41,126 bases of DNA, from the NCBI RefSeq assembly GCF_009663775.1, contig NZ_RDBR01000018.1:1-41126 (forward strand). Direction: 5' to 3'. Shown one piece after another: positions 10,790-33,249 of this stretch (within the stretch, counting starts at the first letter, position 1; each line of letters begins with the position of its first letter). This DNA comes from Lactobacillus sp. 0.1XD8-4 (GTDB lineage Bacteria > Bacillota > Bacilli > Lactobacillales > Lactobacillaceae). The translations under genes were made by a program, and so were the position numbers. The notes below the pieces were generated by a model. The model saw only the letters and a program-made list of their open reading frames with translations, was not told where the DNA came from and made no database searches.

Positions 10790-10836
10790 AATACAGGAGT
10801 TGCGAAAGTTATTTTCCCAGCTCCTGTATTTTTTAT
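10790..10836. terminator. Bidirectional terminator between the SDR gene and the ketopantoate reductase-family gene
   Basis: AATACAGGAGTTG and CAGCTCCTGTATT pair around a 16-20 nt loop. TTTTTTATT follows on the plus strand and TTTTTGTTT on the minus strand, so it can serve both convergent genes. Confidence 0.8.
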
Positions 10837-11795
10837 TGACGGAATTTGCGGGTATTTTCCGCTAAATGAACTAAATTACGCAAAAAATCATGAGTCGATG
10901 CTTCATAGTTATATTTCTTTCCTAAGTCATAAATATATCCATTAATATAGTCAACCTCAGTCGGCCGGTTCTTACTCATATCTTGATACATCGATGGATA
11001 ATGAAGCGGATTGGTAACTTCACTAACGTACTTAATGGTTTGCCATTCTTCTTCGCGGGTACTTAATAATTGGATACCAGCACGTTCAGCAACATCAAAA
11101 GCTTCGTTAATTAACTGTTTACCAAGTTTTTCGGCTCCCGCGAAGGCGATAAACTGCCCCATCTGAATCTCAAAAAGGGTACAAATCGTATTGATAACCG
11201 AATTAAAGACCACCTTTGTTAATAAGGTTCCATAAAAATTATCATTTAAATGCGGATTAATATTAGCCGTCGTAAAATCCTCCACAATCGCTTTAACTCG
11301 TTCATCTGGTTCCCCCGCTTGCGGTGCTAGGTTAATTGAGCCGGCTCCGGGTTTACCGATAAAATCGACATCCCCGGTCTGGTTAAGAACGGTCCCAATC
11401 AAGCACGTCCCGGCAACAACGTGTTCCGCCGGGAAATACTTGTTAATCTTTTCAATATGGCCCATCCCGTTCATTCCGGAAAAAACATATTGATGGTCAG
11501 GGTGAAAGAAGTGGGCGCTTCGTTTGAGGAGGTCACTTAGCGTCATTTGTTTAGCAAAGACAATGAAAACATCAGGATCCCCAGCGTATTCTTCTGGTGA
11601 ATAGATATTAATTGGTACCAAGTGGCGATTTTCGTGGTCACGGGAAACATAAACGCCTCCCTGTTGCTTAATGGTTTCCACTTGGGGTGCCCAGTTATCA
11701 ACAAAGTCAACTTGGGCGCCTGCTAGTTCTTGCAAAAGGACGCCAAACCGTAATCCCATCGCTCCTGCGCCTAATACTGTATATTTTAATGTCAT
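10833..11795 (-). CDS. Ketopantoate reductase (PanE/ApbA) family 2-ketoacid reductase
   Basis: This 320-residue protein has the PanE fold: VLGAGAMG (residues 7-14) for NADP(H), the catalytic-lysine segment LLTKVVFNSVINTIC (about 190) and the glutamate-containing RPTEVDYINGYIYDLG (about 275-290). PanE reduces 2-dehydropantoate to pantoate for CoA synthesis. In lactic acid bacteria, family members also reduce amino-acid-derived 2-ketoacids to 2-hydroxyacids. It is the third gene of the mtnU-mtnE operon, 17 nt after mtnE with GAGGAGGAATC as ribosome binding site, and falls under the Met T-box. That context favours a role with the ketoacid of methionine over pantothenate synthesis, but this is inference. 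No other pan gene is nearby. Confidence 0.8.
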   Translation of the reverse strand: MTLKYTVLGAGAMGLRFGVLLQELAGAQVDFVDNWAPQVETIKQQGGVYVSRDHENRHLVPINIYSPEEYAGDPDVFIVFAKQMTLSDLLKRSAHFFHPDHQYVFSGMNGMGHIEKINKYFPAEHVVAGTCLIGTVLNQTGDVDFIGKPGAGSINLAPQAGEPDERVKAIVEDFTTANINPHLNDNFYGTLLTKVVFNSVINTICTLFEIQMGQFIAFAGAEKLGKQLINEAFDVAERAGIQLLSTREEEWQTIKYVSEVTNPLHYPSMYQDMSKNRPTEVDYINGYIYDLGKKYNYEASTHDFLRNLVHLAENTRKFRQ

Positions 11796-11812: not shown

Positions 11813-12991
11813 CTACTTAAATAAATTTAACTTTGCAATCCGGTCTACTGCCTCCACTAAGCGGTCAGGCTCAATCAGCAAGCCGATCCGGACATAACCT
11901 TCACCATGCGTTCCAAAACCATTTCCCGGGGCAACGGCGACCCCCGCCTTATCCAATAGTAAATCGGCAAAACTTTCACTGGTATACCCGGCCGGCACTG
12001 GCATCCAAGCATAAAAAGTCCCCTTCGGCACAAATGGGTGCCAACCAATCTTATTTGCCGCTGCCACAAAGGCGTTTCGCCGTTCTTCATACCGCTCAAT
12101 AATTTGCTCAATTGCCGCATCACGTTGCGGATCTGTTAACGCCTCAACGGCTGCCTCTTGCAAAGCAGGAAAAAGACTAACAAAAAGGTGGTCTTGGATT
12201 AAGTTCAAAGCTCCAATGATATCTGGGTTTCCCACCGCAAAAGCAATTCGCCAGCCGGCCATGTTAAAGGTTTTAGAAAAGGTATAAAATTCAATCCCAA
12301 CCTCCTTTGCTCCTGGTGTTTCCATGAAGCTAACCGGTGCCTGTCCATCAAATCCGAGCGCTCCGTAAGCAAAATCGCTAATAATGCCCACGTGGTACTG
12401 CTTTGCCCATGCTACTAATGCGGTATAAAACTCTGGGGTTGCAACGGCTCCCGTTGGATTATTAGGATAGTTAAGGTAGAAGAATTTTGCCCGTTTCGCA
12501 ACGTCTGCGGGAATTGCTTCTAAGTCGGGTAAAAAGTTGTTTTCAGCAAGTAAGGGCACGGTTTCAAACTTAACCTTTCCCAAGGCAGCTCCTGAGAGGT
12601 AATCGGGATAACCCGGGTCAGGAAGCAACAAGGTATCCCCAGGATTCATCAACGCCCACGGGAGCTCAACTAACCCAATTTTAGAACCGCCTAAAACAGA
12701 AACTTCTTTTTCTGGATCAAAGACCGCCCCATACTTTTCATGATAAAAATTAGCCGCCGCCTGCTTAAAAGCCGGCAAGCCACGAAATAACGAATACTTA
12801 TGTGTGCGGGGATCAGCCACCCATTTTTGAGTACTTTTTACAATATACTCTGGGGTTGGCTTATCTGGATTTCCTTGACCTAAGTTAATAACATCTACTC
12901 CGGCTGCAATTTTTTGGTTAACCTTTTTTACAAGCGTGGCAAAAAATTGTTTAGGCAGACTGGTTAAAAGTTGTGATTGTTGAAATTCCAT
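11813..12991 (-). CDS. mtnE: MtnE-type aminotransferase (glutamine transaminase-like, methionine-forming)
   Basis: This 392-residue class I/II PLP aminotransferase closely resembles B. subtilis MtnE (YkrV). Both open with a FxQSxxLxxLPKQFFAxLV segment, then VINLGQGNPDKPTPE, LNYPNNPTGAVA (about 174-185), the PLP-binding lysine in YTFSKTFNMAGWR (about K240), and GEGYVRIGLL near the end. MtnE transaminates 4-methylthio-2-oxobutyrate to methionine, preferring glutamine as donor. The partner omega-amidase gene mtnU lies directly upstream, as in Bacillus. The ATG at 12991 follows AAAGGAATGAAG. No other methionine-salvage gene (mtnK, mtnA, mtnB and so on) is in the window, so it may serve general ketoacid or methionine transamination. 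Confidence 0.85.
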   Translation of the reverse strand: MEFQQSQLLTSLPKQFFATLVKKVNQKIAAGVDVINLGQGNPDKPTPEYIVKSTQKWVADPRTHKYSLFRGLPAFKQAAANFYHEKYGAVFDPEKEVSVLGGSKIGLVELPWALMNPGDTLLLPDPGYPDYLSGAALGKVKFETVPLLAENNFLPDLEAIPADVAKRAKFFYLNYPNNPTGAVATPEFYTALVAWAKQYHVGIISDFAYGALGFDGQAPVSFMETPGAKEVGIEFYTFSKTFNMAGWRIAFAVGNPDIIGALNLIQDHLFVSLFPALQEAAVEALTDPQRDAAIEQIIERYEERRNAFVAAANKIGWHPFVPKGTFYAWMPVPAGYTSESFADLLLDKAGVAVAPGNGFGTHGEGYVRIGLLIEPDRLVEAVDRIAKLNLFK

Positions 12992-13009: not shown

Positions 13010-13795
13010 TTAATGGTAAAGGTTTGGTTGGCGATCCTTAAAAACTGGAATCGGTCCCCGAACCGCTTGCAATTGCTGGGGATCAATCGTTGCATATGCA
13101 ATTTGTTCTGTTTCACCAGCATCGACCAAGATTTTTCCCAGCGGGTCGACAACCAGCGAATGACCACCAAAATGGTTGGCATCATCATCACCAACCCGAT
13201 TCACGGCTACGACAAAAGCTTGATTTTCCACCGCGCGTGACTGGAGCATTATCTTCCACTGCGGAATCCGGCTGGCTGGCCATTCAGCCGGCAAGTATAA
13301 TACCTCTGCACCGTGGCGGGCTACCGTCCGAACCCACTCCGGAAAACGCAAGTCATAGCAAATAAAACTGGCACTTGGTATCCCTGATAACGTAAAATAA
13401 TTTTCTTGCTGCCCAGCTGTTAAATACTGGTCTTCATTCATTAAGCCGAAAAGATGCACCTTATCATAGCTGCCTACTAATTCGCCAGTCCGCGAAAAAA
13501 CATAAGTAGTATTAAAAAAGTGCTGATGACGTTGGATTGCTACAGAACCACCAACAATCCCAATTTGATATCGTTGGGCTAAGTCATGAAGAAAACGCTG
13601 GGTGGTTTCACCATCTTTATCGGCAAGGGTCGCCAGCTCGGGCAACGCATAGCCCGTATTCCACATCTCAGGCAACACAATAATATCGGCGTGGCGGGCA
13701 GCCGCCGTGGTTATTGCGCGTCGGACACTGGCATAGTTTTCTGCTGGAGATGCTAAATGAATATTGAGCTGGGCCAATGCAATTTTGATCTTCAT
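13010..13795 (-). CDS. mtnU: Carbon-nitrogen hydrolase, omega-amidase (MtnU-like)
   Basis: This 261-residue protein is a nitrilase-superfamily amidase with the Glu-Lys-Cys triad visible: E43 in VLPEMWNTGY, K112 in SYDKVHLFG, C146 in SFICYDLRFPEW. The DxRFPEW context is typical of Nit2/omega-amidases, which hydrolyse 2-oxoglutaramate to 2-oxoglutarate and ammonia. That reaction pulls glutamine-dependent transamination forward and fits the neighbouring mtnE. I set the start at 13795, 8 nt after GGAGG; an ATG at 13810 lies upstream within that ribosome binding site. It is the first gene behind the Met T-box, whose terminator ends 17 nt before the start codon. Specificity is inferred from context and family. 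Confidence 0.85.
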   Translation of the reverse strand: MKIKIALAQLNIHLASPAENYASVRRAITTAAARHADIIVLPEMWNTGYALPELATLADKDGETTQRFLHDLAQRYQIGIVGGSVAIQRHQHFFNTTYVFSRTGELVGSYDKVHLFGLMNEDQYLTAGQQENYFTLSGIPSASFICYDLRFPEWVRTVARHGAEVLYLPAEWPASRIPQWKIMLQSRAVENQAFVVAVNRVGDDDANHFGGHSLVVDPLGKILVDAGETEQIAYATIDPQQLQAVRGPIPVFKDRQPNLYH

Positions 13796-13811
13796 TTTCT
13801 TTTCCTCCATA

Positions 13812-13847
13812 AAAAAATACTCATCCTTTAATCAAAGGACGAGTATT
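13812..13847 (-). terminator. Regulated terminator of the Met T-box
   Basis: AATACTCGTCCTTT and AAAGGATGAGTATT form a long stem (one G-T pair) with a GATT loop and TTTTTTT after it on the minus strand. It competes with the antiterminator that includes the T-box sequence. Confidence 0.9.
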
Positions 13848-14082
13848 CCCGCGGTGCCACCTAAATTCGCTATCCATTCACATGAACAGCCTCTGTAAGT
13901 TCATTATAAACTTTGATACCTGATAACGGATACCAGCCGGTCGCAGTTTGGTCGTTCCTCACTACGACAGTAATTTTCTCAAGACCATCTTCAAAGCATC
14001 TTGTAATTTTCTCTCACCAGCCGAAAACTCTCTTAATACAACACTGCTTCTACTCATCTCGAACACTTCATATTAAATTGTT
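13812..14082 (-). promoter_or_regulatory. T-box leader, specifier ATG (methionine), of mtnU-mtnE-panE-like operon
   Basis: Read on the minus strand, the leader has a Stem I with an AGTA-containing specifier loop, closed below by TCGAGA/TCTTGA and above by AAGCA/TGCTT. The right side of the loop reads GAAG-ATG-G, putting ATG (plus 13986-13988) at the specifier place with the usual purine after it. GGCTGGTG is the probable distal loop. The T-box sequence TTTAGGTGGCACCGCGG (13849-13865) is nearly perfect. It is followed by the terminator AATACTCGTCCTTT/AAAGGATGAGTATT with seven Ts. Uncharged tRNA-Met should therefore allow readthrough. The T-box call is near certain; the Met assignment rests on my manual fold. 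Confidence 0.93.
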
Positions 14083-14088
14083 ATCAGT

Positions 14089-14117
14089 ATTCTAATTTTA
14101 TTTTAATCTTTTGTCAA
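14089..14117 (-). promoter_or_regulatory. Promoter of the mtnU operon
   Basis: A near-consensus pair on the minus strand: TTGACA (14112-14117) and TAGAAT (14089-14094), 17 bp apart. The predicted start is near 14082. Confidence 0.8.
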
Positions 14118-14187: not shown

Positions 14188-14362
14188 GTAGATTAAAGTA
14201 AGCCAGTTTAGGAATGGAGGTCAGCGACTGAAAGCCCCCACGAGTGCTGAAGCCCTGCTACATATAATTAATTTTAACAATCATATATCTAAAAAGTGTA
14301 AAGCGCGTCTTTAAACGAGAATGGTACCGCCATGATTGGTGTCTCGGTTAAAGGCGTTTTTT
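14188..14362 (+). promoter_or_regulatory. T-box leader, specifier CCT/CCC (proline), of proBAC
   Basis: A short Stem I is closed by TGTAG/CTACA. The left side of the specifier loop carries AGTA, and the right side reads GAAGCCCTG before the closing helix. Taking the triplet followed by a single purine gives CCT (14254-14256); CCC overlaps it, and both encode proline. GCGACTG is the likely distal loop. The T-box core TGGTACCGC is at 14322-14330. The terminator pairs CGCGTCTTTAAACGAGA (304-320 past 14000) with TCTCGGTTAAAGGCG, followed by TTTTTT. proBA in Bacillus is likewise under a proline T-box. Family is secure, and the proline reading agrees with the genes downstream. Confidence 0.88.
14304..14362 (+). 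terminator. Regulated terminator of the Pro T-box
   Basis: The 14304-14320 and 14342-14356 arms pair over about 15 bp with G-T pairs. The T-box core lies inside the loop side of this hairpin rather than only at its 5' arm. Six to seven Ts follow. Confidence 0.75.
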
Positions 14363-14384
14363 GTTTTCTGAAAGGATTCTTATT

Positions 14385-33107: not shown

Positions 33108-33122
33108 AGCTTGAATATCAAT

Positions 33123-33212
33123 AAAACTTAGAGCACAAGGCACATCATACTTAGTGCTGCTTCCTTCCAGACCTGACACGGTTCGTAAGCATACCCTTGC
33201 TCTAAGGCCTTA
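33123..33212 (-). ncRNA. ffs: Signal recognition particle RNA (small bacterial type)
   Basis: On the minus strand the conserved Ffh-binding segment CAGGTCTGGAAGGAAGCAGC is exact (plus about 33157-33176). The outer helix pairs CCTTAGAGCAAGG (33194-33208) with CCTTGTGCTCTAAG (33127-33140). The RNA brings Ffh to ribosomes making membrane proteins. Ends are approximate (within about 5 nt). Upstream, TATTAT or TATACT near 33220-33228 on the minus strand gives a likely -10. The order tadA-SRP RNA-dnaX is the same as in B. subtilis. Confidence 0.95.
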
Positions 33213-33249
33213 CGGCAAATAGTATAATACACTATTTTTCACTAAAATG

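Follow-up and report, generated by a model that had tools for sequence, protein, structure and literature searches.

The window, a stretch of 41,126 nucleotides from Lactobacillus sp. 0.1XD8-4, carries on its minus strand genes for an omega-amidase-like carbon-nitrogen hydrolase, a class I/II aminotransferase and a PanE/ApbA-family protein, preceded by a T-box leader; a proBAC leader lies beyond it in the opposite orientation (Table 1). The family matches agree with the original prediction, which had named an mtnU-mtnE pair plus a PanE-family gene. Residues E48, K117 and C151 of the amidase, invariant in 14 homologs, make up the Glu-Lys-Cys catalytic triad of the nitrilase superfamily, and no NCBIfam equivalog scored above its cutoff with this protein. 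The position of a Shine-Dalgarno sequence, GGAGG (13808-13804), makes the ATG at 13795, rather than 13810, the most likely start of its gene. Most alignments to orthologs start within residues 2-8 of the longer frame; against the start at 13795, the alignment reaches residue 1 in eight rows, which come from other genomes at 67-69% identity. The aminotransferase matches a broad NCBIfam subfamily only, its nearest solved chain being 6l1l ("Aminotransferase"), which we take to be BacF. For the PanE-type protein the nearest solved chains are 8wl3 and 3wfi, the latter presumably D-mandelate dehydrogenase.

Table 1. Features of the amidase operon and of the adjoining leaders, in window coordinates.
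Feature	Position	Strand	Basis
PanE/ApbA-family 2-keto acid reductase / D-2-hydroxy acid dehydrogenase-like	10833..11795	-	PF02558, PF08546; TIGR00745 201.1 bits, cutoff 141.35
Class I/II aminotransferase, MtnE/BacF-like	11813..12991	-	NF005977 "transaminase" 667.5 bits, cutoff 494; PF00155
Omega-amidase-like carbon-nitrogen hydrolase, MtnU/Nit2 type	13010..13795, open frame from 13810	-	PF00795 4.4e-57
Intrinsic terminator hairpin and U tract	13811..13850	-	fold z -6.0
T-box leader RNA, RF00230	13832..14075	-	covariance-model match
Antiterminator, AGG/CCU and GCGGG-type helices flanking bulge UGGCACC	13836..13862	-	Rfam alignment
T-box bulge UGGC facing tRNA NCCA; N = C, mismatched with A73 of tRNA-Met	13856..13859	-	Rfam alignment, ARAGORN
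Specifier-loop closing helix, 3' strand UCUUGA; 5' partner UCGAGA at 14062-14057	13979..13984	-	covarying
Specifier codon AUG (Met, supported) in GAA-G-AUG-G	13986..13988	-	sibling leaders, covarying helix, geometry
Sigma-70-type promoter-like site TTGACA-17-TAGAAT	14089..14117	-	11/12 consensus matches
proBAC leader, predicted proline T-box variant, separate from the amidase operon	14188..14363	+	covariance model, covariation

The leader matched the Rfam covariance model RF00230 with 100.4 bits (gathering cutoff 93, E 3.9e-21) over model positions 1-219, which is the full model. Its AGUA, AGAGA and GGUGA motifs align to a Stem I complete with specifier loop, AG bulge and distal loop. The antiterminator with its UGGC bulge and the terminator have CUCGUCCU in common and are mutually exclusive through it. 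The terminator folds at -35.5 kcal/mol against -19.6 +/- 2.6 for shuffled sequences, none of 200 shuffles being as low, and a U tract (13817-13811) lies 3' of the hairpin. These results confirmed the element as a genuine T-box leader of the canonical transcriptional type, and the leader and terminator recognized in the original prediction stand with it. The T-box motif needs correcting: it had been given as GGUGGUACCGCG and is actually GGUGGCACCGCG, with C (13856) as the base that should pair with tRNA position 73. The region holds three promoter-like sites where shuffled sequences average 1.8, which makes the site weak evidence when taken alone; similar TTGACA...TAGAAT sequences are visible upstream of several orthologs. 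A T-box search of the window's genome returned 28 matches at E<=0.001, 13 of them over cutoff. MIR529 matches in the leader searches fell below cutoff and were taken as chance matches to an inverted repeat.

Reading of the specifier codon

On its 3' side the specifier loop has the sequence GAA-G-AUG-G-UCUUGA. Folding by hand had placed ATG at 13988-13986, G at 13985 and the closing TCTTGA at 13984-13979, and this arrangement was recovered. Two overlapping frames, GAU (Asp) and UGG (Trp), were raised by the C in the acceptor-pairing position and by the Rfam/Infernal alignment, which puts UGG, not AUG, into the model's specifier columns of this leader, with one inserted base.

The register of the closing helix was read from 26 ortholog leaders, 24 from the genus (the window's included) and two from a neighbouring genus. 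The helix begins directly after AUG and one G, and pairs with the strand that precedes (N)GAGUA. The 16 distinct helices have 96 positions, of which 79 pair in register, as compared with 20-41 when shifted by 1-3 bases; 0 of 5000 shuffles reached 79 (mean 57.9, sd 4.2). The closing helices of L236 and L238, from the neighbouring genus, pair poorly. The same geometry, that is GAA, one base, codon, one base and helix, recurs in the window's genome in the leaders of valS (GUA), asnA (AAC), brnQ (AUC), pheS (UUC) and a metE-like gene, the first four genes being named by eye from protein starts and the last by family search. Since the valS, pheS and metE-like leaders have this geometry and their correct codon appears only in the frame that reads AUG in the window leader, the UGG placement was set aside. 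Four leaders of the same genome with an identical GAA-G-AUG-G precede genes for a homocysteine S-methyltransferase, a MetQ/NlpA-like lipoprotein, LuxS and a MetE-like synthase; the targets at L007, L013 and L016 exceed NCBIfam cutoffs and the MetQ-like protein (L008) scores 206.9 bits, under its cutoff of 228.85. Two further leaders with this specifier (L018 and L027) stop at contig ends with no gene visible.

Together, the covarying helix register, the geometry shared within the genome and the sibling leaders on Met genes support AUG as the specifier codon and hence a predicted Met-specific T-box; on the sibling leaders and helix register the GAU and UGG frames were rejected. The Met specificity proposed from the sequence is thereby upheld, as it is by an AUG leader on the same gene pair in Liquorilactobacillus mali. 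The covariance-model check suggested along with it gave a divided answer: the RF00230 match was obtained, whereas the specifier columns hold a different triplet, an outcome that had been named as refuting and that we discount on the geometry of the valS, pheS and metE-like leaders.

Conservation and the acceptor-pairing base

The amidase occurs in 31 of 50 genomes of the genus and in 96 of 301 of the family, where some of the proteins are distant paralogs. At 24 of the 31 genus loci an AUG leader precedes the omega-amidase/transaminase pair, and in the neighbouring genus at two loci out of six, being missing in the other four; each of the 26 leaders is an RF00230 match at E<=0.01, and 12 exceed the cutoff. 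Seven genus loci are without a readable AUG leader. At six (L216, L218, L228, L231, L234, L235) no T-box was found at E<=0.01, L234 being cut by a contig end and L231 keeping what by eye is a degenerate leader remnant. The seventh, L233 (G035), is rearranged, with the amidase gene after the transaminase gene, then proB, and no leader was seen. The transaminase gene adjoins the amidase gene in 31/31 genus loci; the PanE-type gene is present in 24 (partial in one) and missing in seven, five of which have the leader. The L. mali leader (L129, another genus) scores 99.7 bits, over cutoff, and reads GAA-A-AUG-G. Among the matches listed in the named-genome collection (80 loci), a transaminase gene lies nearby in 32 and a PanE-type gene in none in the DNA examined. 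At L240 the operon lies immediately behind two transporter-like genes (MetN/MetI-like by eye), and at L130 in Secundilactobacillus a luxS-like gene (by eye) directly follows the amidase gene.

Some loci have peculiarities of their own. Genome G030 has two amidase-transaminase pairs (L216 and L243), one with AUG leader and PanE-type gene and the other with neither. At G009:C8:21610-22592 the amidase gene is broken by several stops and the GAAGATGG leader still stands in front of it. A second, divergent T-box-like match (L232 5267-5503, 53 bits) lies beside an amidase leader, and at L237 an array of near-identical repeat units directly precedes the amidase gene, with no T-box.

Complementarity of the N in UGGN to the discriminator base is a usual feature of T-boxes, if not of every one. 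The C of the window leader is not complementary to A73, the base that ARAGORN places in the CAU tRNAs of the window's genome in the stretches examined; this mismatch should weaken the acceptor contact relative to the sibling leaders. The rule as worded in an excerpt of the TBDB paper is a Watson-Crick or wobble match (PMC7778990). All five sibling AUG leaders with their 3' end present have N = U, and among the leaders read in the window's genome the window leader alone has N = C. Of the 26 amidase-ortholog leaders, 15 carry C at N and 11 carry U (within the genus, 15 and 9). A genus-wide search for GAAGATGG-N(110-140)-GGTGGCAHC returned 30 matches: the 15 amidase leaders, three other T-box-like sequences (in G005, G008 and G010) and 12 that are not T-box-like. 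With T in place of C there were 173 matches in 49 of 50 genus genomes; those listed include amidase leaders as well as sequences that are plainly no T-boxes. A spacer of 95-125 had returned these leaders and one sequence that is not T-box-like; the three T-box-like matches added by the wider spacer led us to reject exclusivity. N = C is thus enriched at the amidase operon, not exclusive to it.

Mapped on the transaminase tree, the N base requires five changes by parsimony, of which well-supported branches force only one. The mismatch with A73, and leaders that are degenerate or absent in several relatives, would fit a T-box in decay, a weak or dead switch with the operon expressed mostly by readthrough; we consider this highly improbable, as Stem I, terminator and specifier loop are kept in all 15 N = C leaders and their lineages are interspersed with N = U leaders.

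The bulge bears also on which tRNA is read. Both bases found at N in the 26 leaders pair with G73 (C-G, U-G), the base carried by tRNA-Trp and tRNA-Asp in the window's genome, and N = C is frequent only at the amidase operon. Along with the Infernal placement of UGG, this would suit a leader reading tRNA-Trp (UGG) or tRNA-Asp (GAU) through the overlapping GAUGG frame, with an operon serving aromatic or aspartate keto acids. That Met-gene leaders of the same genome have an identical specifier loop, that the closing helix starts right after AUG and G, and that the valS, pheS and metE-like leaders share the geometry of the AUG frame make such a reading very doubtful. A variant retaining Met is that the leader reads two tRNAs, AUGG holding AUG and UGG one base apart; the bulge C, which fits G73 of tRNA-Trp and not A73 of tRNA-Met, is what suggests it. 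The operon might then respond to shortage of Met and Trp together, or need stronger Met starvation than its siblings, and it would amount to a general glutamine-driven rescue of keto acids. Two-codon T-boxes are known, one being cited in TBDB's reference list (excerpt of PMC7778990); for the present leader the idea is improbable. Whatever the contribution of the mismatch, the 15 C and 9 U leaders of one genus form a natural test series for the weight of the pair between T-box and discriminator base.

Other pairings at this position were recorded in passing. The trpS (L024) and asnA (L002) leaders have N = U facing G73 of tRNA-Trp and tRNA-Asn, a G-U wobble; for Trp T-boxes this wobble is reported by TBDB too (excerpt of PMC7778990). 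At L005 and L026, two tandem T-box motifs with specifier CAC (His, by eye) precede an amino acid ABC permease gene, and there, as in a hisS-like leader, N is A although tRNA-His has C73. A divergent, low-scoring tRNA-Met(CAU)-like sequence (L062) lies beside ordinary ones in the window's genome.

The divergent proB leader

A leader of the kind found before proBAC in the window occurs at 13 of 14 proB loci compared. Its 35 pairs, a pseudoknot included, are 97.8% formed among the 13 (32-43% when slid) and eight change on both sides. The covariance model built from these leaders found the element in 40 of 301 family genomes and 6 of 40 genera, with proB adjoining in all 30 loci examined (L293-L322). 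In an alignment of 33 matches fitted to this model, 97.3% of cells pair, as compared with 34-47% in slid controls, and 24 of 31 pairs change on both sides. Under a permissive pattern, CCN, a proline codon, follows GAA after 1-2 bases in 31 of the 33 rows; it is not seen in L219 or in a second match within L212 that is probably spurious. Stem I is short, the bulge reads UGGU and helix A2 ends in G-U. Judging by these features, the leader is a proline-type T-box variant. In contrast to an ordinary T-box, the top of the terminator hairpin still contains the complete antiterminator. The lower part of the terminator is built from one strand of a Stem III-like hairpin together with the final bases ahead of the U tract, from which it follows that the competitor of the terminator would be Stem III and not the antiterminator. 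Rfam detected none of the 13 leaders at E<=0.01; among 14 relatives tested it matched six, at 29-51 bits, below cutoff. Near the proB leader locus of G017 lies a SAM-III (SMK box) riboswitch (L305 126-216, 47.2 bits), and the window has an ordinary bacterial small SRP RNA at 33117-33214 on the minus strand (62.3 bits).

Predicted role of the operon

From the observed leader, specifier, terminator, gene families and conservation we infer a tRNA response, the substrates and a direction from keto acid to Met. We propose, with a probability of roughly 0.78, that a Met-specific T-box controls an omega-amidase, glutamine-type transaminase and PanE-type reductase operon that rebuilds Met from its keto acid. 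In T-boxes, uncharged tRNA favours the antiterminator (excerpts of PMC7583486 and PMC7778990). When Met runs short, uncharged tRNA-Met would pair at two places, by its anticodon with the Stem I AUG and by its acceptor end with the UGGC bulge; the antiterminator would form instead of the terminator, and the operon would be transcribed. The transaminase would then transfer the amino group of glutamine to 4-methylthio-2-oxobutanoate (KMTB), giving Met, and the amidase would hydrolyse the leftover 2-ketoglutaramate, rendering the transamination irreversible; a ketoglutaramate ratchet made of a transaminase and an omega-amidase is described in an excerpt of PMC6302742. The PanE-type reductase would form a link between KMTB and the corresponding D-hydroxy acid, opening the hydroxy analogue to salvage as well.

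Acireductone dioxygenase (ARD) is the methionine salvage enzyme that makes KMTB. None of the 50 genus genomes has an ARD over the PF03079 cutoff, with one weak match below it; KMTB would therefore be external or come from the hydroxy acid via the PanE-type enzyme, and the operon probably acts on keto or hydroxy acid taken up from outside. The step from hydroxy acid to KMTB through the PanE-type enzyme is our hypothesis, and a search of open literature listed no paper on it. In the window's genome, T-boxes with AUC (Ile, by eye) stand before a PanE paralog, an L-lactate-dehydrogenase-family gene and a hydratase-like gene (L004, L010, L014), the paralog being 59% identical to the window's PanE-type protein. 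This hints at 2-hydroxy acid dehydrogenases under amino acid control, in the service of hydroxy acid salvage.

The broad subfamily of the transaminase would also allow a Met T-box on an operon that is not mainly Met-making, one in which glutamine would supply amino groups to several keto acids, or in which Met would be broken down to KMTB and the hydroxy acid as a redox sink. The PanE-type reductase, in its usual direction, would consume KMTB, and its paralog is found behind an Ile leader. A Met-consuming path induced by lack of charged tRNA-Met would make no sense, however; the other leaders with this specifier in the genome precede Met supply genes, and it is the reductase that is missing in 7/31 loci, the transaminase in 0/31. 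We regard this alternative as unlikely.

Met T-boxes as such are familiar. Excerpts of the literature give 3-7 per genome in lactobacilli (PMC3771891), describe them for Met supply in L. plantarum (PMC2494555) and, in an L. reuteri study, name a "T-box (methionine)" gene set (PMC10949432). The window leader resembles the Met T-boxes of Lactobacillales and staphylococci in its RF00230 family, AUG specifier and terminator/antiterminator switch, and differs in its N = C and in its omega-amidase/transaminase/PanE target, theirs being synthesis or uptake. With the mtnU-mtnE salvage of Bacillus it shares two enzyme families, often neighbours in Bacillaceae loci, some of which have SAM riboswitches; it differs in having a T-box instead of an S-box, a co-transcribed PanE-type gene and, with no above-cutoff ARD in the genus, no complete salvage cycle. 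The pairing of transaminase and omega-amidase with irreversible transamination is that of the glutamine transaminase-omega-amidase (GTwA, glutaminase II) pathway (excerpt of PMC6302742); the window pair differs by lying in one operon under a predicted tRNA-Met switch. The open literature searched yielded no study of a T-box in front of an omega-amidase operon. Thus, the kind of T-box is known and the amidase-operon target is unusual, and it may already be in databases, possibly in the RegPrecise or TBDB tables.

For the genus, these findings would tie an omega-amidase/glutamine transaminase pair to Met supply where an above-cutoff ARD is lacking, and predict salvage of external KMTB or of its hydroxy acid.
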